Shown one piece after another: positions 3,508-17,775 of a stretch of 31,742 nucleotides of DNA. The DNA lies in the IMG/VR virus record IMGVR_UViG_3300025449_000031, positions 1-31,742 of that record. One strand, given 5' to 3'. This DNA is from a virus. Both the position numbers and the translations under genes were made by a program. Position 1 is the stretch's first letter; each line of letters opens with the position of its first letter. A model generated the notes under the pieces. That model did no database searches, was not told the DNA's origin, and saw nothing but the letters and a program-made list of their open reading frames with translations.

Positions 3508-6500
3508 TTACCTTATGTCTGGAAGCCATGAACCATACATATTAATTCCATCACAAACAAAAGTAATGATGTCATGAGCGCCAGGGCCGGTATTGGCTCC
3601 TATCCAAGATGTGGCACCGGCCCATTTATATCCACTACCAAAAGATAAAGTTCTACCACCGGTACCATCTTGATAAACGTGTAGAATATAAGTTCCAATT
3701 TTTATGTTTGTAGGATTTGCTAATGTTCTATTACCTCCAAGTGTAATAGTAGCAACCATTCCTTGTGAAACGTCCCATGAAATTGTTGCACCATCGGTTA
3801 ATGTTTGTGATGATGCGTTAGCATTATTATTAATTGTTCCTGAAAATGTTGATGTTCCTGTAAATGATGGACTTGCTTTAGGTGCGTAAGTTGATGCAGC
3901 TGATGATGTGGTTAAATAACTTCCTAATGTGGATGTTAAAGATGTTGATGTAACATAAGAACCTTGAATAAATGTATTTACGTTATTGGCAACAACACCG
4001 GCAGTGTTAGCTGCACCAAATGCCGCAACACCATTGGCAAGAGTATAATAAGAAGCAGAACCAATAATACCTTGTAAATATGTATTTGCTTGATCTGTAT
4101 AACCATTAGCACCAACTGACACACCGTTGGCCTTTGCAAACGCTGCCTGAGCATTAGCATATGTTGCAATGACCTGTGTGCTATTATTATCAGTAAAGCT
4201 CCAGAATCCAGTTGTTTCGTTCCAAAATATGGATGTATTAGGATATGTACCACGGGCAATAACCATTCCAGAATTTACTGATAATGGAGGTGATGTGCTA
4301 GGTAACTCGGCATTATGGATAATATTATTTGTACCAACTAACAATGTCTGTGTATTGACATAAGTGGTATTACCTGTTACGGTAAGATTGCCAGATATTG
4401 TTACGTTACCTGTGATTGTACCACCAGCAAGTTTTAAGAATGTTGCGTTAGTCCAAGTATTAGCAGCAGTTGTTAGAGCAATAGCATAGTTAGCATTACC
4501 TACCGCAACGTTTGATGCAGATGTAATACGACCGTATTGGTCAACTACAAATGTTGGAACAAAGTTATCATTAGCTGTATATGTTCCTGATGTAACACCA
4601 CTGTTAACCAAGTTTAGTGTTGGATTGGATGTACCATTGGTTACAAAAATCTGTCCAGATGTGCCGGTAACAGAAGTTACCGCAGATGTTAGATATGTAG
4701 CGGTAGCAACGGCAGTAACACGACCAAAAGCGTCGAGTGTGACTGATGCAATACCAGATGATCCCTGTTGTCCTGCACCAGCACCACCTGTAGCAAGGAA
4801 GACACCATTGACATTCGCTACGATACCGCTATTTGCCTGGACACCAAGATTGATAAAGTTATTTGTTGCGTTTGATGTGACAACTATACCGTTACTGTTA
4901 CCAATGGTAAGTGATGTGTTTATCGAGTTGGCAAAGAATGTATTACCACTTGCTATTATTGTGGCGAATGAGTTAGTAGCGGCCACGTTAGAAGCAGAAG
5001 TTATTCTACCAAATTGATCAATTACAAATGTTGGAATTTGTGAAAGACCACCGTATGACTGTGCAGTAACACCTGATGGATTCTGTGTAATCTGAATACC
5101 ACTGTTAGTGGCATTAGCAATCAGGACGATGTTATTGCTTGATGTAATGGTTATTGTATTAGCATTTGTTGTCGGTGTTAAAGATGTACCACCAACAGAA
5201 TGAGTAACATATGCTGTCTGAACCACACCATTTGCTTTAGCATAGACATTGTTAGCAACCACACCTGCTTGGTTGGCAGCACCAAATGCCGCACTACCAT
5301 TTGATATGGTATAGAAAGATGAATTACAATATGCGGTGGCATTAGCAATATCTGTATTAGAAGCAATAAACAACATGCTTGTGCTGTTACCATTAAACAT
5401 CCAGGCTGTGCCAGGTTCATTCCAGAATAGTTGAGCATTTGCTCTAGAACCACGATTAACAATAATAGCAGCATTACTGGTTGAAGAAGGAGGCAAATTA
5501 CTGGCCAAATTACTATACATAACAATTGAACCAGAACCGACAGAAAGTGATTGAACACCTTGTTGTGTCGTAACACCTGCTACTGTTAAGTTACCTGTAA
5601 TGTAAATATCACTTGAAATTGTTTGAACAATAGCAGGTGTGTTAGCAGGTGGTGCCAACTTAACAAATGTAACGTTGGCCCAAGCATTTGCCGAATTGGC
5701 GTAACCAAATGCTGCGTTAGCAACTGTGAATCCAGAGTTGGAAGATGTGTATGATGCATTGATAACACCAAATGCTGAGTTTACCGCAGTATATGTAGCA
5801 TTAGTTAAAGCAAATCCAGAGTTGGATGAAGTATATGCCGCGTTGATAACACCAAAGGCACTATTAACTGCGGTGTAGGTAAGATTGGTTAAACCAAAAT
5901 TTGAGTTTGTTACTGTAAAGGCAGAATTTGTTAATACATAAGCCGCATTTAAAGAAACATAAGCACCCGATAAACGGACGTTATCTGTATTGGATTGGGT
6001 AAATGCTGAGTTAACCACACCAAAGGCGGAATTAGTCACTACATAGTTGGCATTGGCCATAACATATGCACCAGTCAATCTAACGTTATCGGTATTAGAT
6101 TGAGTAAATGCAGCATTAACCACACCAAATGCTGAGTTGGTTACGGTCCAGTTTGCATTTATTGAAACATAAGCGGATGATAATCTAACGTTATCTGTAT
6201 TGGACTGTGTGAAAACTGAATTGGTAAGCACATAGTTAGCATTACCGGATGTATATGATGAGTTAACCACACCAAATGCTGAGTTGGTCACAACATAGTT
6301 AGAATTTGCCATATCATAAGCAGCATTTAAAACGGTAAATGCTGAGTTCAGTTTATCAAATGCTGCATTAGAAACAGCATAGTTAGCATTACCTGTAGTA
6401 TATGCAACGTTAAGCATATTCCATGCAGCATTAACAGTTCCAAATGCTGAGTTGGTTGTCACATAGTTGGTATTTGCCATGTTATAGCAGGCATTAACTG

Positions 6501-6612
6501 TAGTGAACTCTAAGTTCTGTGTGTCATTTAACTGATTGGCAAAAAGGATAACCTGGTTAGTTTTTGTGAACCAGGTACTAAATGTGTCTGTGAGGTTAAC
6601 GTTTGCAATCAT
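3508..6612 (-). CDS. Long tail fibre with 41-heptad Asn-repeat shaft (1034 aa)
   Basis: Residues 1-32 form a short head. Residues 33-319 are an uninterrupted heptad array with Asn at position 1 and an aromatic residue at position 4. A duplicated module follows: copy 1 at about 336-457 and copy 2 at about 738-878, each with a NLTV strand, LFWNE or IFWNE, and an AAFGAAN tail. Between them are repeated fibre motifs PTFVIDQFGRITSASNVA (528-544 region) and PTFVVDQYGRITSASNVA (686-703 region). The C-terminus (about 930-1034; TISWDVSQGMVATITLGGNR, YGSWLPDIR) is a fibre tip domain I recognise from phage adhesins. The ATG lies 2 bp after the preceding stop, with AAGGA about 13 nt upstream. Inference: the main receptor-binding fibre, probably trimeric. 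There is no enzymatic motif. Confidence 0.82.
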   Translation of the reverse strand: MIANVNLTDTFSTWFTKTNQVILFANQLNDTQNLEFTTVNACYNMANTNYVTTNSAFGTVNAAWNMLNVAYTTGNANYAVSNAAFDKLNSAFTVLNAAYDMANSNYVVTNSAFGVVNSSYTSGNANYVLTNSVFTQSNTDNVRLSSAYVSINANWTVTNSAFGVVNAAFTQSNTDNVRLTGAYVMANANYVVTNSAFGVVNSAFTQSNTDNVRLSGAYVSLNAAYVLTNSAFTVTNSNFGLTNLTYTAVNSAFGVINAAYTSSNSGFALTNATYTAVNSAFGVINASYTSSNSGFTVANAAFGYANSANAWANVTFVKLAPPANTPAIVQTISSDIYITGNLTVAGVTTQQGVQSLSVGSGSIVMYSNLASNLPPSSTSNAAIIVNRGSRANAQLFWNEPGTAWMFNGNSTSMLFIASNTDIANATAYCNSSFYTISNGSAAFGAANQAGVVANNVYAKANGVVQTAYVTHSVGGTSLTPTTNANTITITSSNNIVLIANATNSGIQITQNPSGVTAQSYGGLSQIPTFVIDQFGRITSASNVAATNSFATIIASGNTFFANSINTSLTIGNSNGIVVTSNATNNFINLGVQANSGIVANVNGVFLATGGAGAGQQGSSGIASVTLDAFGRVTAVATATYLTSAVTSVTGTSGQIFVTNGTSNPTLNLVNSGVTSGTYTANDNFVPTFVVDQYGRITSASNVAVGNANYAIALTTAANTWTNATFLKLAGGTITGNVTISGNLTVTGNTTYVNTQTLLVGTNNIIHNAELPSTSPPLSVNSGMVIARGTYPNTSIFWNETTGFWSFTDNNSTQVIATYANAQAAFAKANGVSVGANGYTDQANTYLQGIIGSASYYTLANGVAAFGAANTAGVVANNVNTFIQGSYVTSTSLTSTLGSYLTTSSAASTYAPKASPSFTGTSTFSGTINNNANASSQTLTDGATISWDVSQGMVATITLGGNRTLANPTNIKIGTYILHVYQDGTGGRTLSFGSGYKWAGATSWIGANTGPGAHDIITFVCDGINMYGSWLPDIR
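5656..6516 (-). repeat. 41 consecutive Asn/aromatic heptads in the long fibre
   Basis: Asn recurs at residues 33, 40, 47 and so on to 313 with no insertion or deletion. The only exceptions are S145, T180 and S215, each immediately after an NTDNVRL unit. Position 4 is usually Phe or Tyr (Trp at 64). NTDNVRL starts at residues 138, 173 and 208, giving a 35-residue (105-bp) superperiod. At DNA level the tract is an imperfect 21-bp periodic repeat. Confidence 0.9.
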
Positions 6613-6819: not shown

Positions 6820-9800
6820 TTAAATCTGTAATGCTATAGCACGAAGTTCTGATGCCTTAGGAACTGCTGCGGCACTAGAGGCCAACAATACAATCTTAAT
6901 AGCAAAGAACTGGAAGTTTGTATAAGTTGTTCCGTTGGATGTATATTGGAACTCACCGTTTGTTCCAGTCATAACAGAAGTTGGTAACAAATAAGCAAAA
7001 TCAATATAGTTTGATGTATCAGATGCGGAAGAATATGTCTGACCGCTGTTACCTTGGTATGCCATTTGTATCCATGGTTTATTATTAAAGTTATCTGGAT
7101 CGTATTGGTTCATTAACTTGCAGTAAACCAAAACATCTGTTCCTGGTGGACGATAGTTGGTCAAATACACGTTAAGGTCACTTGCGGCCTGGCCTTGTGC
7201 AAGTGTGATTGTTTCTGAAATGTATTTATTAAGTGCGGATCCACCCATCGGATTGGTTTCACCTGTAGCATCGTTATTAACAAGGCTATCAATAAGAACA
7301 CAATATGTTGTCGCCAAATCTAATAGAGGTGATGTATAGATTGAGTTGCTTTCAATCTGAACTTGTACCTTATTGGATCGGTTACCAGATAGTAATGAAG
7401 ATTCTAATGATTTAGAATAGATTTCCATTTCATTTGTAAAGAATGTTGAAGATGCTTCCGAAACTGGAACATATCCACTATCACTTACGGCACCTACTTT
7501 ATAAGTGTCCATAAAGTATTGTGAACCAGTTTTGGTGAAGTTAAGAACATCCGGATGGATACTAACACCAGAATAGGTGTAGTTTAGCATGTCTGTTATT
7601 TTAGCACGGAATGCATAACCACCGGATCTGGTATCTTGAATCCAATCACCTACTTTAAATCCACCTGTGGAAGCAGCCATCTCAACATAAACATTAGAAT
7701 AAGAATCATTATAGAAAGTTAGAACTGCTGAGTTATTAGCAATTGCTGCCACAATACCATGACCACCAGATGTGGCAGTAACCATTTCACCAATCTGATA
7801 ACGGGTATTTGACGTTTGATATTGTCCACCACTAACTGAAACAAGTTGTCCGGCGGCAGCTGCACCAGAAACATTACCTGTTAGAGTATCACCTACGGTA
7901 ATAGTTCCACTAACACCTGATAGTGTTAATGTATCACCAGAAACAAAGTGGTCATTAATAAGAGTTGAGAATGATGCACTCACATTTGAAAGATACCATT
8001 TCTCAATACCTTGCTGGCCAAGAGTGAATGTTGTTGTGCCGGTAGCAAAGTTGGCGATGTAAACGTTAATAGTAAGATCGGAATCTGAGATAAGGTTCCA
8101 TGTAATATTATCGTTTGTGAAATAGAAGTTTCCATATTGCTGTCTATTAGAATATGTAGCACCTTTGTTTGATCCATATTGTTGTGTCTGACTTAATGTC
8201 GCACACCAAAGGTATGTGTTAGGATCAACGATGCCGCCGGTACCTGCGGTCCCGTGGACTGTAAATGCATAAGATTGATTATTATGCAAGAATACAGGAT
8301 AAGGGAATCTGATTTGTAATGGATTTGTCACACCATCTGTAGATACTGGAATGTTTGCGTTCTTAACATAAACATAACTTCCTGGTACCTGTGTATTGGT
8401 AATCTGACCGGCACTATCTAGTGTTCTAATCTCAAACCAAAGGTCTCTGCTATCCGACTTTGTAGCAACGAACACATCGTAACCTAAACAGAATACACCT
8501 TCTTCGTCGGTTGGGACTTTGATGTTGACGTTATAAGCCATACAGCAGTTATGAACAACATAACCTTCGACGATGTATGTGGAGTCGCCGCTGAGTGTTA
8601 GATCGTAAACCGTGTAGTCTGGATCAAAGTCAACGATTTCTGTTCCTAGTTCATGGTAATCAACAAACTTAAAGTTGACCTTATCATCCGACTCCATGTC
8701 AACGATTTTTAGTTTGTCAAGTGGATCAATACCCTCTTCACGGTTTTCACCTTCGAGAATATGCTGGTTGGTACCATTCTTTCTAATGACACTCTTTGGA
8801 TCCCAAGTCTTCCATCCTTTGTCGGTGAGGAAGATGTGATCGTCTGTGGCATAGAATCCTTCTTGGAACTTAACCATCTTACGGTCACCGACATTGATTG
8901 TCCTTGACTTCATAACGGTATTAATATCACCATTCGCGCCGATTACCTTTTCACCAACATTAACGTCAGAGATTGGTTTCCAAGTCTTGTCGGCCATCAG
9001 CACCTTTGCTTCTGGATTGAAGCAGGAGTAAGGAGGAGGCGTTGTATTGACAAGAGTGGTGTTTGCGTATGACAAATAGCTTTGCTGAATAACTGGTGAG
9101 TTATAAGCAACGGACTGAGTTGAGTATACCGTTTCCTGTAATGTCTGTTGTGTTCCTTGTGCAAAGAACTGTGCTGATGCCCAAGTTGTAATGCCTGCTC
9201 CAGGAGCAGTTGAACCAGGTGCCAGGTTAATATTATCCTGAACAATCATAAGTCTTTGACCTACGTTAAACTTAGGACATCCAGCATTAAGAGGATTTGT
9301 TGTATCAAAAATCTTAAAGGCATAATAAAGTGAACCATCAGCATTAACAACTAATGGCGCACCCATTACTGCATAGGTAGAAGTGGCCAATAGTGCAGCA
9401 ACGTTAGGACTCTGAATACCGGATGCTGTGTATGTATTAACACGGCTAACGGCATTAAACTGATCCGCTGTAAGTGGTGTGCAGTAAGCATCAACATTCA
9501 CGGAGTCAAAGAAAGCATGAACCTTGGCATTTGGCATCAAACCTAAAACACTAACCAAGATTTCTTGTGGCTGAATGTATGGTATAATAGATGTGTTAAT
9601 GACGTTATAACCACCAACAGCCTGGCCGCTTTGTTGGGTAATAAAGTTATTGGTACCCATTCGATCATTTTCGGTGGTTTGAACGATTGTAGCACCACCT
9701 GTACCATAACTGTGAATCCAAGTGTCAACATAACCTACAGCCGCAGCATAGGTAGAGAATGTTTTAACAGGTTCATTTGTTGCTGCCCAACCAGTACCAT

Positions 9801-12800
9801 AAACGGTATAACCGGTGATAAACTGAGTCCATGCACCCCACGTCTGACCAATCCAGGTATTTGTCTGCACGGCAGTAGAAACAGGAACATTTGGACCTGT
9901 ACCAACACTTACGTTGATAAGTGAAGAACTTGATGTTATGTTAATGTATTGATCAGGAGCATAGATTGTATCAACCCAAACGTCATCTGATGGGCTTAGT
10001 GTCATTCTACCAACATAGAAGTAAGCATTTCTTTCCAAGTTTAGAGAAGTTGTTGCCCATGGTTGCTGGAAATATTGCTGAGTGGTATACGCAAAAGTAA
10101 TCATACCATTACTCATTACAGTATTAGTACCACTCAAATAATCATAGTAAATAGGTTTGGTAGAGTAAATAGGTCTGATACATAACTCTAGTGGATCAAA
10201 TGCAATCCTCATATCAGGGTTTAGATATATTGCTGATGAAGAGTTATCTTTAAATGTATCGATAAAGATACCGTTTTTGAACCTTGTCAAACCATCGGCA
10301 TTCATGATGTTCATGTTTAATGCGGAGGATTCCAACAGGGTCAAAGAAGCATAGTATTCTAGATTTTTAATACGATTATCAAGAATACCCAAGTCTCTCA
10401 TGGTATAGATTTTTGTAGAAACTGTCTGAACGGAACAGGCAAGGTCTTGACGGCCTATAAGATTACCATAAGCAGGTGACAAAGATGGATAAGGTGCTAA
10501 TGTGATAATAGCCATGGCCATTTGTGTATCAAGTGCTGAAGGAGGTACAGGAGTTGCTGCCGCAGTTCCTTTTATTACCGATAGAACACCATTCTTATTA
10601 CCAACAAGAACGTCTTGACGACCAAGATAGTATGAATAACTATATGTTATCTGTGATGATGGAACAGGCAAATACATTTCACCTGAATAATAGAATGTTG
10701 TAGACTTTGATGGATTTGTAGATGCTGATCCAACTACTGTGGCATCTGTTGCTGTGTTTGTTTTTACAGGTCTAAAATCCAAATAGTTTCTCAGATCAAA
10801 TCGGTAGTGAGATGATGGAGAAGTATAAAGTGGAACCTGTTCTGTTCTAATAGCATTTGATGGTGTTGGTACTGTAACGTCATCAATGTTATAAGAATCA
10901 ATGGTAAAGTATCCTGAATAGTTACCAAAATTTGGTAAGAAGTAATCAAAATAAACCAACAAATAGTCACCAGAACTTGGTGCAAAACCACCTACAGGAT
11001 ATATACTTGCGGTATCATACATGTTATCACGTTGGCCGTTATCTAACCTGAAATAACCTGTAACGTCTTGACCATCTGTTAAACTGGCTGGCGCTGAACC
11101 ATTTTTTCTGACAACTTTTCTGATTGCATAAACATCAGAGAATCCTAGAGGATATGGACCTGTTGTGCCATTAGGATGTGTAGATACGTTAATATTAACA
11201 TAACGTTGAGGTTCCAAAATCTTTTTAACTTCTTGAATACCAGCAGTAGCTACTTTATATGTAACAGTAACAGGAACGGTTGTAGAATAACCTTCCTGCA
11301 TAGAAATCTGTAGTGTTGTTGGTGTGGCAGAGACGGACCTTGGTGAACCATTCCTAACACCAACACCATTTAGATTGGCAATATCACCTGCTTTGTATGC
11401 TTTGAATACGTTGCTGGTTGTAACGGAAGCAGGAACAGGTGCAGACACAGTAATTTGTGTATCGCTTGTAATACCTGTAATATAATAGGTATTTGCCAGG
11501 CCTGTCAACTCAATCTTATCACCAACATTAAGTTTAGTAAACTGTGTGCTAACACCATAAAGGATGTTACCTCCGCCCATAGATGAAACGGTTGCTGAAC
11601 CCCACAAAGGACCAATATTGATTGATGCTTGGTATGTTACAGTAATGTCCTGTGCGAGTTCTGTTTGTGATAGTAATGTAGTACCATAAGGTAGTTCCTG
11701 TGTACCTGTGCCACTACCAGCGATTGTAAGAGAAACGTTACCTGCGGTTGATAAGTAAAGAGATGTTGCCGTTTGTTCATAGTTATAGGTTACAGAACCG
11801 TTACCATCAACGTTACGAACTGTTTTAGTTGATGGAGAACCAGCATAATACAACATAGGTTGTGGATATGTAGCCTGTAGAACTGTATTTGCGATTCCTG
11901 CTGTAGCACCAACAACGTCAGCACCTGATGCAGCAAAACTTCCTGTAAAGTATAAACTCAAAACTTGAGAGAATGTTTTACCTGCGTTCATAGTAATGTC
12001 TGCCAAATAGATATTATAAATGGCATCATAACCTTTTACACCGGAAACATACTCTACACCTAATAGTGATGCTGAACCGATCTGAGTACCTGATTCCGAA
12101 CCTGTTGACCATTTCTGTCCGTTTGGTATTCCACCATTTGTAATTCTCTGGTTAGGAGTGTCATAGAAATAAACTCTTGAACCTACGTCAGCAGTCCATG
12201 TACCAACAAACTCATTAACTGTTAAATACTGGCCCATAGTTGCTGATGATAACTGCACACCAACATTCTGTGAATCCATAGGTTTGGTGATTGTAATGTC
12301 GTATTTTCCAGGATTTGTTAGATTATAACCTTTAACGTATGCCTTACCAGCACTAACTGAGGTAATCAACAAGTCTGTATTACCACCTTGTGCAGGTGTG
12401 TAACGACCGTTATTGACACCGTTGTTTTCGTGTTCTTGTAGTGAAACGCTTAGACCACTAACAACAAAGTCACCGTCAACGTCATACATTCTGGTTGCCA
12501 TAGCATCATTAATACTATTAAACTGAGTGTCACTATTAAGGATTTGAATATTACCATTTGATATGGCGAAAAGTGTAATGAAATCAGCAGGTGGTGTTGT
12601 GCCGTATGGGAAAACTGTTAGCTGTGGATCTAATCTTAGACGATCAGCACCAGGAGCACCATAGTTTGATGATTGTTGTGCAGGATCTAATAGAGAAGAA
12701 TCCGCTGATGCTGTTACAATATCTTCATATACATAGAAACCTACGAGTGAAGATGGATTTGGATTATATCTTTCAAGGATTGCTGACTGAGTTGGAAAGT

Positions 12801-13449
12801 AAATAAAATGGTCTTTAGCAAAGAACACACCTTCTGAAATCTCAAACCAAGAACCATAACCTGTATTTGCAACAGGATCGGTATTTAATACTTTAGCAGT
12901 AAGAGTTGTGTTGGCAATACTAAGTGTTTCACCAGCCGCAAAAACACGGGCATTACTTGTATTGGAAGCAGTTAGATATTGAACGTATAGAGTTTTGGTA
13001 TTTGTGGTCGTACCATCTGTATCTGCTACTGTTATAACTTGTGCAGTAATGTTACTTGATGCACCTTTTACGGCATGACCAATAAAAGAGGCCACATTAA
13101 CTGTTCCACCGACCACATCTGTATTCTGAATTTTGACGAAAGGAATAGGATTACCTTTTACATCACCATAGTTGGAACGAATGTTAAAAGCACCAGGAAT
13201 AATGATAGAACCATCTTTGAAGATGTTTGTACCAAATCGTTTGATCTGGCTTTGTATCATAGTCTGTATTTGTGTTAGCTCGCGAGCCTGAACTGAATAA
13301 CCAGGTTTAAAAAGGATTCGATAGTATTCGCTTTCAGGCTTATAATCATCATAGTATGGTGTCACATTAAAATTGGTTGTCAAACTACTCTGAATTTGAT
13401 TGGCCGAATTAGATGAGGTATTTGCACCGTTAAAATCTGTGAATGACAT
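6820..13449 (-). CDS. Giant DUF4815 baseplate/tail protein precursor interrupted by a mini-intein (2209 aa)
   Basis: The N-terminus (about residues 41-86: YYRILFKPGYSVQARELTQI then GTNIFKDGSIIIPG) is the hallmark of DUF4815, a structural family of T4-like marine phages. The DUF4815-like region appears to run to about residue 1000. Residues 1476-1634 are an intein (separate entry). If spliced, a mature protein of 2050 residues results. The C-terminal extein (1635-2209) begins with a beta domain containing VFCLGYDVFVATKSDSRDLW and FPYPVFLHNNQSYAFTV, like the 'PVYL' domain of large baseplate/appendage proteins. A further Gly/Thr-rich beta segment lies at about 1840-1950. AAGGA precedes ATG at 13449, 11 bp after the gp8-like stop. 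It is probably the peripheral baseplate component joining wedges to fibres. The exact T4 equivalent (gp10 region) is uncertain. Confidence 0.85.
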   Translation of the reverse strand: MSFTDFNGANTSSNSANQIQSSLTTNFNVTPYYDDYKPESEYYRILFKPGYSVQARELTQIQTMIQSQIKRFGTNIFKDGSIIIPGAFNIRSNYGDVKGNPIPFVKIQNTDVVGGTVNVASFIGHAVKGASSNITAQVITVADTDGTTTNTKTLYVQYLTASNTSNARVFAAGETLSIANTTLTAKVLNTDPVANTGYGSWFEISEGVFFAKDHFIYFPTQSAILERYNPNPSSLVGFYVYEDIVTASADSSLLDPAQQSSNYGAPGADRLRLDPQLTVFPYGTTPPADFITLFAISNGNIQILNSDTQFNSINDAMATRMYDVDGDFVVSGLSVSLQEHENNGVNNGRYTPAQGGNTDLLITSVSAGKAYVKGYNLTNPGKYDITITKPMDSQNVGVQLSSATMGQYLTVNEFVGTWTADVGSRVYFYDTPNQRITNGGIPNGQKWSTGSESGTQIGSASLLGVEYVSGVKGYDAIYNIYLADITMNAGKTFSQVLSLYFTGSFAASGADVVGATAGIANTVLQATYPQPMLYYAGSPSTKTVRNVDGNGSVTYNYEQTATSLYLSTAGNVSLTIAGSGTGTQELPYGTTLLSQTELAQDITVTYQASINIGPLWGSATVSSMGGGNILYGVSTQFTKLNVGDKIELTGLANTYYITGITSDTQITVSAPVPASVTTSNVFKAYKAGDIANLNGVGVRNGSPRSVSATPTTLQISMQEGYSTTVPVTVTYKVATAGIQEVKKILEPQRYVNINVSTHPNGTTGPYPLGFSDVYAIRKVVRKNGSAPASLTDGQDVTGYFRLDNGQRDNMYDTASIYPVGGFAPSSGDYLLVYFDYFLPNFGNYSGYFTIDSYNIDDVTVPTPSNAIRTEQVPLYTSPSSHYRFDLRNYLDFRPVKTNTATDATVVGSASTNPSKSTTFYYSGEMYLPVPSSQITYSYSYYLGRQDVLVGNKNGVLSVIKGTAAATPVPPSALDTQMAMAIITLAPYPSLSPAYGNLIGRQDLACSVQTVSTKIYTMRDLGILDNRIKNLEYYASLTLLESSALNMNIMNADGLTRFKNGIFIDTFKDNSSSAIYLNPDMRIAFDPLELCIRPIYSTKPIYYDYLSGTNTVMSNGMITFAYTTQQYFQQPWATTSLNLERNAYFYVGRMTLSPSDDVWVDTIYAPDQYINITSSSSLINVSVGTGPNVPVSTAVQTNTWIGQTWGAWTQFITGYTVYGTGWAATNEPVKTFSTYAAAVGYVDTWIHSYGTGGATIVQTTENDRMGTNNFITQQSGQAVGGYNVINTSIIPYIQPQEILVSVLGLMPNAKVHAFFDSVNVDAYCTPLTADQFNAVSRVNTYTASGIQSPNVAALLATSTYAVMGAPLVVNADGSLYYAFKIFDTTNPLNAGCPKFNVGQRLMIVQDNINLAPGSTAPGAGITTWASAQFFAQGTQQTLQETVYSTQSVAYNSPVIQQSYLSYANTTLVNTTPPPYSCFNPEAKVLMADKTWKPISDVNVGEKVIGANGDINTVMKSRTINVGDRKMVKFQEGFYATDDHIFLTDKGWKTWDPKSVIRKNGTNQHILEGENREEGIDPLDKLKIVDMESDDKVNFKFVDYHELGTEIVDFDPDYTVYDLTLSGDSTYIVEGYVVHNCCMAYNVNIKVPTDEEGVFCLGYDVFVATKSDSRDLWFEIRTLDSAGQITNTQVPGSYVYVKNANIPVSTDGVTNPLQIRFPYPVFLHNNQSYAFTVHGTAGTGGIVDPNTYLWCATLSQTQQYGSNKGATYSNRQQYGNFYFTNDNITWNLISDSDLTINVYIANFATGTTTFTLGQQGIEKWYLSNVSASFSTLINDHFVSGDTLTLSGVSGTITVGDTLTGNVSGAAAAGQLVSVSGGQYQTSNTRYQIGEMVTATSGGHGIVAAIANNSAVLTFYNDSYSNVYVEMAASTGGFKVGDWIQDTRSGGYAFRAKITDMLNYTYSGVSIHPDVLNFTKTGSQYFMDTYKVGAVSDSGYVPVSEASSTFFTNEMEIYSKSLESSLLSGNRSNKVQVQIESNSIYTSPLLDLATTYCVLIDSLVNNDATGETNPMGGSALNKYISETITLAQGQAASDLNVYLTNYRPPGTDVLVYCKLMNQYDPDNFNNKPWIQMAYQGNSGQTYSSASDTSNYIDFAYLLPTSVMTGTNGEFQYTSNGTTYTNFQFFAIKIVLLASSAAAVPKASELRAIALQI
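8548..9024 (-). other. In-frame mini-intein (Hint domain, 159 aa) within the DUF4815 gene
   Basis: The element spans residues 1476-1634. Block A begins at Cys1 (CFNPEAKVLMADKTWKPI) and continues NVGEKVIG. Block B contains the TxxH motif in FYATDDHIFLTDKGW. Block F is TVYDLTLSGDSTYIVEGY. Block G is VVHN, followed by Cys+1 in the extein (CCMAYNVN). Cys1, the block-B Thr and His, the penultimate His, the terminal Asn and the +1 Cys are all present, so standard class-1 protein splicing is predicted. At 159 residues there is no room for a LAGLIDADG or HNH endonuclease, and none is seen. My hand count over 8581-9000 gives about 43% GC, slightly above the flanking coding sequence. The frame is intact on both sides. 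Confidence 0.93.
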
Positions 13450-13460
13450 TTTCTATCCTT

Positions 13461-14786
13461 TTAGAAACTTAAAACTATTTTAAAATCTTCGTTTTGGTCA
13501 TCTGCTCTTGAGATGGGAGTTATATTGTCCTTATATAGGATATGTCCTTTATAAGGTTGACAATCTGGATATTGAGGATTACCGCTAACATATCTCTGTG
13601 CCGATGATGTATAACCATAAATTAGATTGGAAACAGGTGTTCCGTTTGTATTATTTATTTTTAACAGTGAGTTGGCTGAATCCCATGCTACCACAACTCC
13701 TGTAAAATATGCATTAGATAAATTAGGTCCTTGATAAACGATTTCGTCGTTAATATAATCTGTGGTAGAACTACTCTGACTTAGAGTAAGTGTCATGGCT
13801 TGAGAAAACGCCAAGTTGGTCATATTGTTTGTAGTACCATAAACCACCGGATCAGCCAACAATGCAATTTGCCTGTAATCATTTTGTGTTACAAGAACAC
13901 CATTTTCGTTACCATCCAACTGTGGATTGATCATAATATATGAACCACCTAGTTCATAAAGTGGATCAGAACCATGACCTCCTGGAGGACTAATGATTGC
14001 TCTGGCAGTCGCATACTTACCTACGTTTGATGTGATGTAAACATTTGCATAAGTATATCCTGAACCATAGTTGTCAATAACGATACTTTGTACCGTATCA
14101 GTTTGTGTATTGACAACAGCATAAGCATTAGCAAACTGTCCGTCACCTGTTACCGTAACGGTAATAATTTGTTGATAAAGATATCCTTCTCCACCTGAGG
14201 TAACGACTATGCTATTGATAGCACCTGGAACGGCATCCTGCTGAACTTGCCACTGTAAAGAGTTGTCGTCTTGTGTTAGTGTTTTAACTGGAATGAAACT
14301 ATTGGTGGTAAATCTTTGCTGTTCATTACCATTTAAGGTATACATGTATTTCCAATAATATTGATCGGCAGCCTGAAACATGATACCAGGGTTGGTTGAT
14401 GTTGGTTTGTAAATTGAAGGTTGACCGTAGTTATTGGCAATACATTTATAAACGTTAAAGTCGTCTGTAATAACATAATATGCTGTATTGGCACCTTTTG
14501 TTAATGAATCCTGTGTGTGATCATAGGCCATATAAACGGTATTTGTGGTCCAGTTAAATCTTGGAATAACATGATAAACATCGCTACCAAATAACTGTTT
14601 TCCACCAATCATAGTTCTCCAGACTTCATTATAAGATTCCACAGAGGTATTAGCTTGATCAGGATTTTGATCATTAGTCCATGGAGATTGGTAACCAAAT
14701 GTTAAATAAACATTGGCGCCGTCTATGTTATTTTTAAACTGTTCTGCTGAATAAACTTCAAGGTCTTTGGAATATACTGATGCCAT
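13461..14786 (-). CDS. gp8: Baseplate wedge protein, gp8-like (441 aa)
   Basis: The N-terminal region (AEQFKNNIDGANVYLTFGYQ, then PWTNDQNPDQ, YNEVWRTMIGGK and YHVIPRFNW) matches the enlarged gp8 wedge subunits of marine T4-like phages as I remember them. T4 gp8 itself is 334 residues. The extra length includes a beta module with two GxGY-type motifs (TSGGEGYLYQQ, DNYGSGYTYAN) at about residues 190-270, also seen in the gp6 and gp7-like neighbours. The C-terminus (CQPYKGHILYKDNITPISRA, then DDQNEDFKIVLSF) closes the wedge-type domain. A TATAAATA late-promoter octamer lies 23 bp upstream of ATG, and an AAAGAG ribosome-binding site precedes the start. The protein acts in the wedge, connecting gp6/gp7 to the periphery. 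Confidence 0.75.
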   Translation of the reverse strand: MASVYSKDLEVYSAEQFKNNIDGANVYLTFGYQSPWTNDQNPDQANTSVESYNEVWRTMIGGKQLFGSDVYHVIPRFNWTTNTVYMAYDHTQDSLTKGANTAYYVITDDFNVYKCIANNYGQPSIYKPTSTNPGIMFQAADQYYWKYMYTLNGNEQQRFTTNSFIPVKTLTQDDNSLQWQVQQDAVPGAINSIVVTSGGEGYLYQQIITVTVTGDGQFANAYAVVNTQTDTVQSIVIDNYGSGYTYANVYITSNVGKYATARAIISPPGGHGSDPLYELGGSYIMINPQLDGNENGVLVTQNDYRQIALLADPVVYGTTNNMTNLAFSQAMTLTLSQSSSTTDYINDEIVYQGPNLSNAYFTGVVVAWDSANSLLKINNTNGTPVSNLIYGYTSSAQRYVSGNPQYPDCQPYKGHILYKDNITPISRADDQNEDFKIVLSF

Positions 14787-14808: not shown

Positions 14809-14816
14809 TATTTATA
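14809..14816 (-). promoter_or_regulatory. T4-type late promoter octamer (TATAAATA) before the gp8-like gene
   Basis: The minus strand reads TATAAATA, an exact match to the T4 late promoter -10 element recognised by the gp55 sigma factor. It overlaps the stop codon of the gp7-like gene. A start site would be expected near 14802, leaving an AAAGAG ribosome-binding site before ATG at 14786, which is good geometry. No -35 element is needed in the T4 late system. Confidence 0.5.
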
Positions 14817-17775
14817 CGCCAAATCTACCACGATAGAGGCTGAAGCTATTGATTATTTCACTATTTGATAGAACTCTGTTATAAATCTGTACCAAACCAA
14901 TCTTACCGGCCATGACGTTGGCCACGTTAGCATTAGCAGCATAACGACCACCAATATAGATTGAACCGTTGGAGTCGGTTGCTGAGTTAGCAGTACCTAT
15001 GGAAATGTTTGTTACGTTACCATTTATATAACCTCGGATGGTTGAACCATCGTAGGTGAACGCACCCATAACCCATGTATTACTGTTTATATTATTAGCA
15101 ATCAAAAGTTTGTTGGTTGCGGTAGTAGGTCTTACAATAACCTCTAGGTTTTTGCCATAGTTGTATAAATCAAATCCTCTGGTGTATCCATTATCGGTCT
15201 TAGCAACTATACTTCTACCTGTATTGGCAGTGTTTGCAACATCAAACCAAGCAATGACTGTTATTAGGTTTGAAACATTTAATGATGATTGGTGAGGCAT
15301 AATAACAGTATCATTATTTCCGTCATAGAACATACCACTACCAGAAACATAAGCACCGTTGGCAATATTAGCCCATTGCTTTGTATTGGCAGTATTGAAC
15401 CAAATGTTATTATATGCCGTTGTGTTGGATGTAATAGTGAGATATTGTGCCGAATCCAACGAAACAATCAGGTTGCTAGTATGAACGCCTGCCTGTACCG
15501 CAGAATTGATAACATTAAGACCGTTTGCCATAGACTGGTTGTTATCTTCATATATATACTGACCATAAACTTTAAGACCAGCAGGGTGGACAAGATCATA
15601 AAGTGCTTTACGGTAGTTATTAATGGATTCACTAATCTGAATAACATAAGAATAGTTTTGGTAATAGTCTCTATCCTGTAACTTGTATGGAGAACTTGGT
15701 TGACCTGCTTGGTCAAGATATCTTCCTGGATAGGTGTAAATACCTGTGACGATGTTGGCATAAGCCTGTGCCGTTCCGTCGCCTTGTGTTGATAGGTCAA
15801 TAATTGGTGGATGATGATAACCAAGGCCGCCAGAGATGATTTTGAGTGAAGCAATAGAACCAATAACGTTTGACTGTGCGTTTAGTGAAGCACCGTCGGC
15901 AATACATGCCGAAACCTGAATGATAGCACCGTTACCGTGTACCGTATGAATATTAGCAGTTGGAAGAGCATCTTCTCGGTAACCTAAACCACCTGGTGGA
16001 TAACCAGGTAATGCAAAGAAGTTTACCTGAACTATGGTACCGTTGGAGTCAACAACAGAAACTTGAGCATTACCACCATAACCATAAGTTCCATATGGAT
16101 TATCAAATGTTATTATGTCACCGTTAGCATAACCTTGACCACCATTAATGATATCCATCCTTCCTAACATACCTAGAGAGCGAACTGAGGTGTTTGACAA
16201 TACAGAAACAGATGGTATGCTGGTATAACCAGAACCAGTATTGATAATGTCACAAGCAATAATAGGTCCGCAAGGTCCATACGTCCAATAGTTCATGGAG
16301 TTGGCCAATAGTGTATTGACGTTAGGTTTCTTATTGACCACGAAAGAAACGTTGGCTAAACTTCCAGGTAATCCTGGTGTTGTTGTTATTTGCCAATACT
16401 GTTTATTACTTAAAGTGATTGTCTGATTAGCATACGCTGTGCCTGGGAAAGAAAGAACATCACCAGTCTCAAAATAGACATTTGAGTTGGCCATATTTTT
16501 ACTCAACCATAATGTAGTGATTATACTTCCAGGTGGGGTGCTAATATCGAGGTTTGATGTGTTTGACCATTGAGTTGCTAGATTAGAATATGCCTGAGTT
16601 TCAACATAATCACCAACAGCATTTACTATTGGATATCCAGCAACGTCACTGATAGTAGAACCAACAATATTATAATATGCTGGATGATAAACATAAGTAT
16701 CCTGTACCGAAAACACATTACCAGCAGCATTAGCACCATCTCCACCTGTGAATAACAAAGGAGTGTTTGCAATATAACCAGCACCAGGTGCTAGAACGTT
16801 AACCTGTTTAATCTTTCCTTCAAGGTGACTTTTGGTAACTTTATTAATAACAACCTGACCACCGAATCCAAACTGAATGTTACCATTGGAAACAACATAT
16901 CCATTTTGATCGGTTGATCTAATAGTAACTGAAGCACCTTCAACGTATCCAGAACCAGGTGATGTTACAGTTGTGCTGGTAATAATACCAGAATAAATGC
17001 TTGCGGAAAGAGTTTTATAAACACCCTGATCTTCAATAGTGGTTGTAATGGTTTCACCATCATAAAAATCTTTAACAACATCAGATACAATCAATTCAGT
17101 TACTAGAATACCACTTTGATAATAAGGATTAACACTTTCTACGGTACAAGTTGAGTTTGATGTTCCGCCAGTAATTGATGTATTAACAAATCTAGAAAAT
17201 GCTATACTATTAGCAACGTTATCGACAGTAACATTCTGAATGTTAATAGATTTTTGAACGAACCATTTACCATCAGAAGGTTTTAGAATATTTGTCTGTG
17301 GATAATAAACAGTTGCTTCTTTATTAAAAAGAACTCTGGCCAAGAACCTAATAGATTTTTCAGAACCTCTAGAACGATAAAAGTCCTTAGAATGTTTAAG
17401 AACCGTTACTGGATCTGCCAACATGTTAGATGGAATAAACTTGGCGAAGTTAGTAAAAAACTGATTGTATAAAGGTTCATAATATGGTGGTATTTTTTCT
17501 AATGTCTGATCTACTGTTATAACTTCACTATCAACAGAGATAACCTCCATATCAGTAGTTACAGGAATCGTTAGATCAGCAATTCTTTGATTTAATGTAT
17601 CAATATCATAGAAATCTGGAAACCTCTTGGTGAGGTACATCAGATTATCACCTTGTTCTAGAAACTTATAATAACTTTCCAAAAACTGAACGAATAAAGG
17701 ATGATCCCTTCTAACGAACTCAGGAAGTTGTGAACTGACTAGATAAGATGTTTTATTATTTGAGGAGTCAATCAT
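14812..17775 (-). CDS. gp7: Baseplate wedge protein, gp7-like, with C-terminal LamG/lectin-like domain (987 aa)
   Basis: The N-terminus (SQLPEFVRRDHPLFVQFLES, then YYKFLEQ) and the following segment with DFYRSRGSEKSIRFLARVLF are typical of the gp7-position wedge protein of marine T4-like phages. T4 gp7 is 1032 residues. The middle (about 260-690) contains five GxGY beta modules: SPGSGYVEGA, APGAGYIANT, NTGSGYTSIP, NGGQGYANGD and SGGLGYHHPP. Residues about 772-987 form a concanavalin/LamG-like domain (AYVSGSGMFYDGNNDTVIMP, VIAWFDVAN, WVMGAFTYDGSTIRGYINGN, GSIYIGGR, GKIGLVQIYNRVLSNSEI). The start overlaps the gp6 stop (TAATG), so the two are translationally coupled. It forms the wedge core with gp6. 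The lectin-like tail probably projects outward and may bind glycans (inference). Confidence 0.75.
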   Translation of the reverse strand: MIDSSNNKTSYLVSSQLPEFVRRDHPLFVQFLESYYKFLEQGDNLMYLTKRFPDFYDIDTLNQRIADLTIPVTTDMEVISVDSEVITVDQTLEKIPPYYEPLYNQFFTNFAKFIPSNMLADPVTVLKHSKDFYRSRGSEKSIRFLARVLFNKEATVYYPQTNILKPSDGKWFVQKSINIQNVTVDNVANSIAFSRFVNTSITGGTSNSTCTVESVNPYYQSGILVTELIVSDVVKDFYDGETITTTIEDQGVYKTLSASIYSGIITSTTVTSPGSGYVEGASVTIRSTDQNGYVVSNGNIQFGFGGQVVINKVTKSHLEGKIKQVNVLAPGAGYIANTPLLFTGGDGANAAGNVFSVQDTYVYHPAYYNIVGSTISDVAGYPIVNAVGDYVETQAYSNLATQWSNTSNLDISTPPGSIITTLWLSKNMANSNVYFETGDVLSFPGTAYANQTITLSNKQYWQITTTPGLPGSLANVSFVVNKKPNVNTLLANSMNYWTYGPCGPIIACDIINTGSGYTSIPSVSVLSNTSVRSLGMLGRMDIINGGQGYANGDIITFDNPYGTYGYGGNAQVSVVDSNGTIVQVNFFALPGYPPGGLGYREDALPTANIHTVHGNGAIIQVSACIADGASLNAQSNVIGSIASLKIISGGLGYHHPPIIDLSTQGDGTAQAYANIVTGIYTYPGRYLDQAGQPSSPYKLQDRDYYQNYSYVIQISESINNYRKALYDLVHPAGLKVYGQYIYEDNNQSMANGLNVINSAVQAGVHTSNLIVSLDSAQYLTITSNTTAYNNIWFNTANTKQWANIANGAYVSGSGMFYDGNNDTVIMPHQSSLNVSNLITVIAWFDVANTANTGRSIVAKTDNGYTRGFDLYNYGKNLEVIVRPTTATNKLLIANNINSNTWVMGAFTYDGSTIRGYINGNVTNISIGTANSATDSNGSIYIGGRYAANANVANVMAGKIGLVQIYNRVLSNSEIINSFSLYRGRFGV

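Follow-up and report, generated by a model that had tools for sequence, protein, structure and literature searches.

The 31,742 nucleotides of viral DNA analysed here (IMG/VR record IMGVR_UViG_3300025449_000031, from now on the window) encode, inside a baseplate protein of a T4-like phage, a Hint domain that is likely to be a class-1 mini-intein, a putative element that would leave a flexible linker and rejoin its two exteins. Its main interest lies in its company, since the window contributes the splicing-type representative of a Hint family that is bound to a single baseplate-protein linker and consists mostly of BIL-like domains, many of them in tandem.

The Hint domain and its host protein

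The domain, like all the features of the host gene described below, lies on the minus strand, where positions 8548–9024 form 159 stop-free codons (CFNPEAKV...VEGYVVHN; residues 1476–1634) within an ORF of 2209 amino acids (6820–13449), followed immediately by CCMAYNV. The first-pass annotation had placed a Hint domain of this length exactly here, in a host of 2050 residues once the domain is discounted, and had listed the residues needed for splicing, all of which are present: Cys1, whose codon adjoins that of Ser1475 at the N-terminal junction (9022–9027); the block B sequence Thr60-Asp-Asp-His63 (TDDH; 8836–8847); the Tyr140-Asp141 pair of block F (residues 138–152; 8569–8613); the His158-Asn159 end of block G (GYVVHN, residues 154–159; 8548–8565); and Cys+1, which faces Asn159 at the C-terminal junction (8545–8550). 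It had also suggested a comparison with Hint and intein profiles, and both PF05203 (Hom_end_hint; 34.5 bits for a curated cut-off of 32.1, E=2.7e-8) and the NCBIfam model TIGR01443 (intein_Cterm; 18.1 bits for a cut-off of 15.6) recognise the domain. AlphaFold2, supplied with 30 relatives, predicts a confident Hint fold (pLDDT 92.5, pTM 0.88), and a Foldseek comparison of this model with the PDB puts BIL2 from the BUBL1 locus of Tetrahymena first (6y75; E=3.6e-7) and the gp41-1 intein second (6qaz; E=4.3e-7), with matches to inteins at E about 1e-6. Every catalytic residue is kept in relatives at 47–99% identity, and judged by this conservation the Hint assignment is far beyond chance. No endonuclease family was found in the domain with Pfam, and its 159 residues leave no room for one, which agrees with the first-pass annotation and sets the element apart from homing (endonuclease-bearing) inteins.

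The host ORF matches PF16075 (DUF4815) with E=1.7e-51 and phrog_358 with 4.6e-284, and the N-terminal part of its product matches in sequence the DUF4815 chain (9euf) in baseplate structures of Staphylococcus phage phi812 (E=9e-21). It adjoins a gp8-like baseplate wedge gene (13461–14786; phrog_438, 5.9e-95), and the order of gp8-like, DUF4815 and tail-fibre-like genes is that of isolated T4-like phages. The Pfam match and the place after gp8 in the baseplate cluster identify the host as a baseplate protein of the DUF4815/VrlC type, as had been claimed, with an N-extein of 1475 residues (9025–13449) and a C-extein of 575 (6823–8547). In the surroundings of this gene, the two tail-fibre-like genes (1356–2900 and 3508–6612, minus strand) carry many short related repeats (NSAFGVVNAAYT..., SNTDNVRL...) that are common to both and to contigs L002 and L003, and positions 14812–17775 (minus strand) encode a baseplate-wedge-type protein of 987 residues (phrog matches), the last 200 of which resemble, on our own reading, a LamG/concanavalin-type module.

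Comparison with intein-free homologues puts the insert at the point where a variable linker, in many cases rich in Pro or Gly, meets a conserved motif that reads DPLAQTF in most of them and CxAYSF in the window's subfamily. The equivalents in the window are the Pro-containing linker end NTTPPPYS (9025–9048) and the motif CMAYNV (8527–8544), with which the C-terminal domain begins. The site is empty in L028, L031, L066 and L085. For L028, a near relative, AlphaFold confidence is about 34–42 over the 40 residues that precede the motif and about 70–85 from the motif onwards, in the beta-rich domain; the model of this region is moderate overall (pLDDT 61) and served only to locate the boundary between linker and domain, and the region gives a fold match to the same phi812 baseplate entries. 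A broad alignment of C-exteins is without conserved stretches, and no near-identical intein-free allele of the window gene was found. A Hint is present in 2 of 54 motif-containing loci (4%, indicative only, as the survey was drawn from the top 80 among at least 600 N-terminal DUF4815 matches).

Profile scores, fold, catalytic residues and empty-site relatives thus support the reading of the domain as a mini-intein, and a Hint fold with Cys1, TxxH, His-Asn and Cys+1, inserted in a continuous host protein that has intein-free homologues at the same position, is what distinguishes class-1 inteins. The element lies in the flexible linker that connects the large N-terminal portion of the DUF4815 protein to its beta-rich C-terminal portion, where Cys1 would form a thioester with Ser1475 and Cys+1 would attack it to give a branched intermediate. 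Cyclisation of Asn159 would then release the intein, and an S–N shift would link ...PPPYS to CCMAY... in a protein of 2050 residues.

Hint domains at the DUF4815 linker

The same element occupies the same site in L002, L003, L004/L005, L020 and L021 (99–50% identity), and in DUF4815 proteins the Hints of this clade are always followed by Cys-Cys-x-Ala-Tyr. Cys1, TDDH, block-F Asp, His-Asn and Cys+1 are kept in its six DUF4815 members, down to about 50% identity, and in L023, a 47% relative found in a different, virion-type protein. The clade forms one group with L023 (support 100/99) in which the separation of the six DUF4815 Hints from this other-host copy is not supported (40/22). L005, L021 and L023 have an extra Cys just before Cys1.

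Pattern searches with HN-K-DP(L/I)AQ(S/T)F and HN-K-CFxxGT added many members to a wider family. Counting the window, DUF4815 proteins with Hints are encoded on 25 contigs, and almost all of these Hints stand just before DPLAQTF or CxAYSF. In uncultured T4-like phages, Hints thus recur at the DUF4815 linker. Hints are single in L030, L056, L187, L189, L190, L193 and L194, double in L186, L188, L197 and L200, triple in L024 and fourfold in L185, L191 (the fourth with a broken frame) and L204; L192 holds an apparent broken copy of the L185 array, and copy number in L185, L191 and L192 is to be read with the possible mis-assembly of repeats in mind. The arrays of L199 and L203 stand at the end of the ORF, and in L203 the C-terminal part is encoded by the next one. 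Array copies are joined by one Lys (HN-K-C), the exceptions being Arg in L188, Lys-Ser-Ser-Ser in L186 and, once, a longer Gly/Cys linker in L199. The frequency of Lys is biased by the searches, as one pattern contains the final Lys and the other an internal one; independent of both patterns is the Lys+1 of L030 and L056 (N-terminal search) and of L024 (Hint search), and the internal junctions of arrays found with the first pattern, which does not cover them, are all Lys except for the Arg in L188. Later array copies from different phages mostly group together in the tree (96/96), which means that arrays predate the individual phages and did not arise separately in each of them. Head-to-tail Hint arrays with a one-residue linker were not found in the open literature covered by a non-exhaustive search. 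The tandem signature matched one genome and 15 viral contigs, the pattern used for genomes being slightly stricter, and 84,980 genomes contained no cellular relatives of the window intein.

The first-pass annotation considered a virion baseplate protein an unusual host. This stands for isolated phages, in that a tblastn search of 50,697 phage records with four Hint queries, which could miss kin at about 25–30% identity, gave no Hint annotated as DUF4815/VrlC; its matches lay in helicases and terminases, in one portal protein and in proteins without a known function. It does not stand for the uncultured T4-like phages, where this site recurrently holds Hints, and other virion-type proteins hold them too. 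Outside DUF4815, Hints were seen in an internal virion-type protein (L023:4036–8565, Cys+1), a portal-like protein (L027:5569–7818, Ser+1), a protein that an Achromobacter phage encodes close to its baseplate hub gene (L013:3083–4525) and small proteins of neighbouring genes (L149, L153). The longest array seen, seven consecutive Hint matches of which six are full-length, belongs to a tail-type protein that is rich in Gly and lies outside DUF4815 (L201:7328–12841, minus strand). In L199, L203, L201, L117, L136 and L155, the last Hint of some arrays and single Hints in small ORFs end in YxVNGYGTxS...DGG without His-Asn, and are perhaps of the Hog-like, N-cleaving type.

In an alignment of 47 Hints, for which full-length matches were selected, Cys1, the block-B His and the terminal His-Asn are invariant (47/47), and the +1 and block-F residues together define two chemical states. 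All seven Cys+1 Hints have Asp in block F, and all 37 DUF4815 Hints with Lys, Arg or Gln at +1, out of 43 aligned from this protein, have Asn (Fisher 1e-7, a value that is not to be taken as independent evidence, since the association may reflect one or few evolutionary changes). In class-1 inteins the block-F Asp acts in the Cys+1 step, and its change favours cleavage. The 37 Hints lack a +1 nucleophile, as A-type BILs do, and the window element, with Cys+1, does not belong with them. BIL domains of this kind yield mainly cleaved products (reviewed in PMC7664689; PMC7765530), and in Tetrahymena BIL2 a lysine yields an isopeptide bond instead (PMC8616854). The probable outcome for the Lys+1 forms is that the chain is cut, or else joined through attack by an amine. 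A Cys directly precedes Cys1 in 12 of 24 first Hints at the DUF4815 site (e.g., L189, L190, L194, L197 and L204), often as CC|C, and a redox role for it is possible.

Probable exchange of the intein and the alternatives to splicing

The intein is far less diverged than the exteins that surround it. Between the window and L002 its dS is 0.12, against 0.65 for the N-extein and 0.71 for the C-extein, and between the window and L003 it is 0.35, against 0.77 and 1.16; the lowest dS among equally long stretches in the rest of the gene (0.30 and 0.50) is above that of the intein in both comparisons. Identity falls at the ends of the intein, although with L003 about ten codons at the end of the N-extein are identical as well. 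With a dN of 0.005 at a dS of 0.12, and of 0.005–0.016 across comparisons, substitution rates indicate that the intein is under strong purifying selection. From the dS differences it was probably exchanged between phages, although it encodes no endonuclease. Within the region 6820–14786, dS between the window and L002 is about 0.007 in the gp8-like gene and about 0.65 in the adjacent DUF4815 gene: the two genomes are mosaic, and their DUF4815 gene has been exchanged or evolves fast, for which reason the low dS of the intein favours exchange and not homing as such. A free-standing endonuclease was considered as the mover and rejected: the four contigs examined contain no GIY-YIG gene, HNH_3 is on one of them only, the array-bearing L185, and neither is present on the L003 and L005 contigs, which may be incomplete.

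The low divergence of the intein relative to the rest of the gene fits an exchanged splicing element and favours the splicing reading. The serious rival, given that most Hints at the site lack a +1 nucleophile and stand in tandem arrays, is that a BIL-like Hint cuts the DUF4815 protein into parts of ~1475 and ~575 residues, with ligation as a side reaction or absent. The predominance of the Lys/Arg/Gln+1 state with block-F Asn and the cleaved products typical of such BILs speak for it, and so does the structure of the gene in some phages. In L042, L077, L094 and phage DLP6 (L011) it is divided in two at this site or close by, the second part starting at or close to the motif. The first of the two genes of L123 finishes with a complete Gln+1 Hint and a short tail, and the second begins MSNEPLAQSF. 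The two parts of the protein can thus work as separate chains, which, together with the scarcity of +1 nucleophiles, makes ligation dispensable for the protein family and keeps cleavage viable for it, less so for the Cys+1 clade, which retains without exception Cys+1 and the block-F Asp, residues that cleavage does not need. For the window we consider autocleavage rather improbable.

Other readings carry less weight. The proposal of the first-pass annotation that splicing sets the timing of baseplate protein maturation, with the intein as a switch, gained nothing from the analysis: conditional splicing has general precedent, and the Cys beside Cys1 in some relatives might permit redox control, but no regulatory feature was found, and close relatives have the same protein free of Hints, as do 52 of the 54 loci surveyed, so that we regard it as very improbable. 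The idea of an inactive Hint retained in the virion protein seems just as far-fetched, since the residues invariant in all 47 aligned Hints and the strong purifying selection on the intein argue against it, even if the low-confidence linker of 40 residues could tolerate an extra domain. There is also a slim chance that the linker is a dedicated Hint site where, by analogy with BIL2, the Lys+1 conserved in tandem forms would act as an amine nucleophile, arrays would build amide or isopeptide links from one part of the baseplate to another, and the Cys+1 element of the window would be a splicing variant of this machinery. Splicing of the window intein, as a member of a family that repeatedly occupies this linker in mostly BIL-like, Lys+1 and often tandem form, is the reading we prefer.

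Comparison with known systems

The window element has in common with class-1 mini-inteins such as gp41-1 (6qaz) and the Spirulina DnaX mini-intein (7cfv) the Hint fold, Cys1, TxxH, the block-F Asp and the HN-Cys end. It differs from them in its host, a virion baseplate protein, and in having relatives with Hints of a non-splicing type at the same site; its identity to solved inteins is only about 16–19% over the fold alignment. The Lys/Arg/Gln+1 relatives resemble A-type BILs in their Cys1, their terminal His-Asn and the lack of a +1 nucleophile (PMC7765530), unlike the window element with its Cys+1, and are set apart from them by one fixed site before the motif, a near-constant Lys+1 and head-to-tail arrays. 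The top structural match, BIL2 of BUBL1 (6y75), is a BIL whose gene is rich in repeats; the side chain of a Lys there takes the place of the +1 nucleophile, with an isopeptide bond as the product (PMC8616854). BUBL domains stand between ubiquitin-like domains, whereas the DUF4815 Hints succeed one another directly, and the likeness consists of the match in fold and of the Lys+1 that the relatives conserve.

Inteins of large phages have been described in terminase, NrdA and PhoH, and the parts of these papers that were searched report none in DUF4815 and none in tandem arrays (PMC3322345; PMC3556154; PMC5259590; PMC10448857). These too are phage-borne Hint domains inside ORFs, with the difference that their hosts are enzymes and that some include an endonuclease. 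In the usual view, inteins are parasites in conserved enzyme sites and BILs are processing domains in variable proteins. At the DUF4815 linker, a single position of one virion protein accommodates both states (Cys+1 with block-F Asp, and Lys+1 with block-F Asn), alone or in arrays. These natural sequences make it possible to test how forms that splice and forms that do not are interchanged, and whether Hint chemistry serves phages to cut or join their baseplate proteins.
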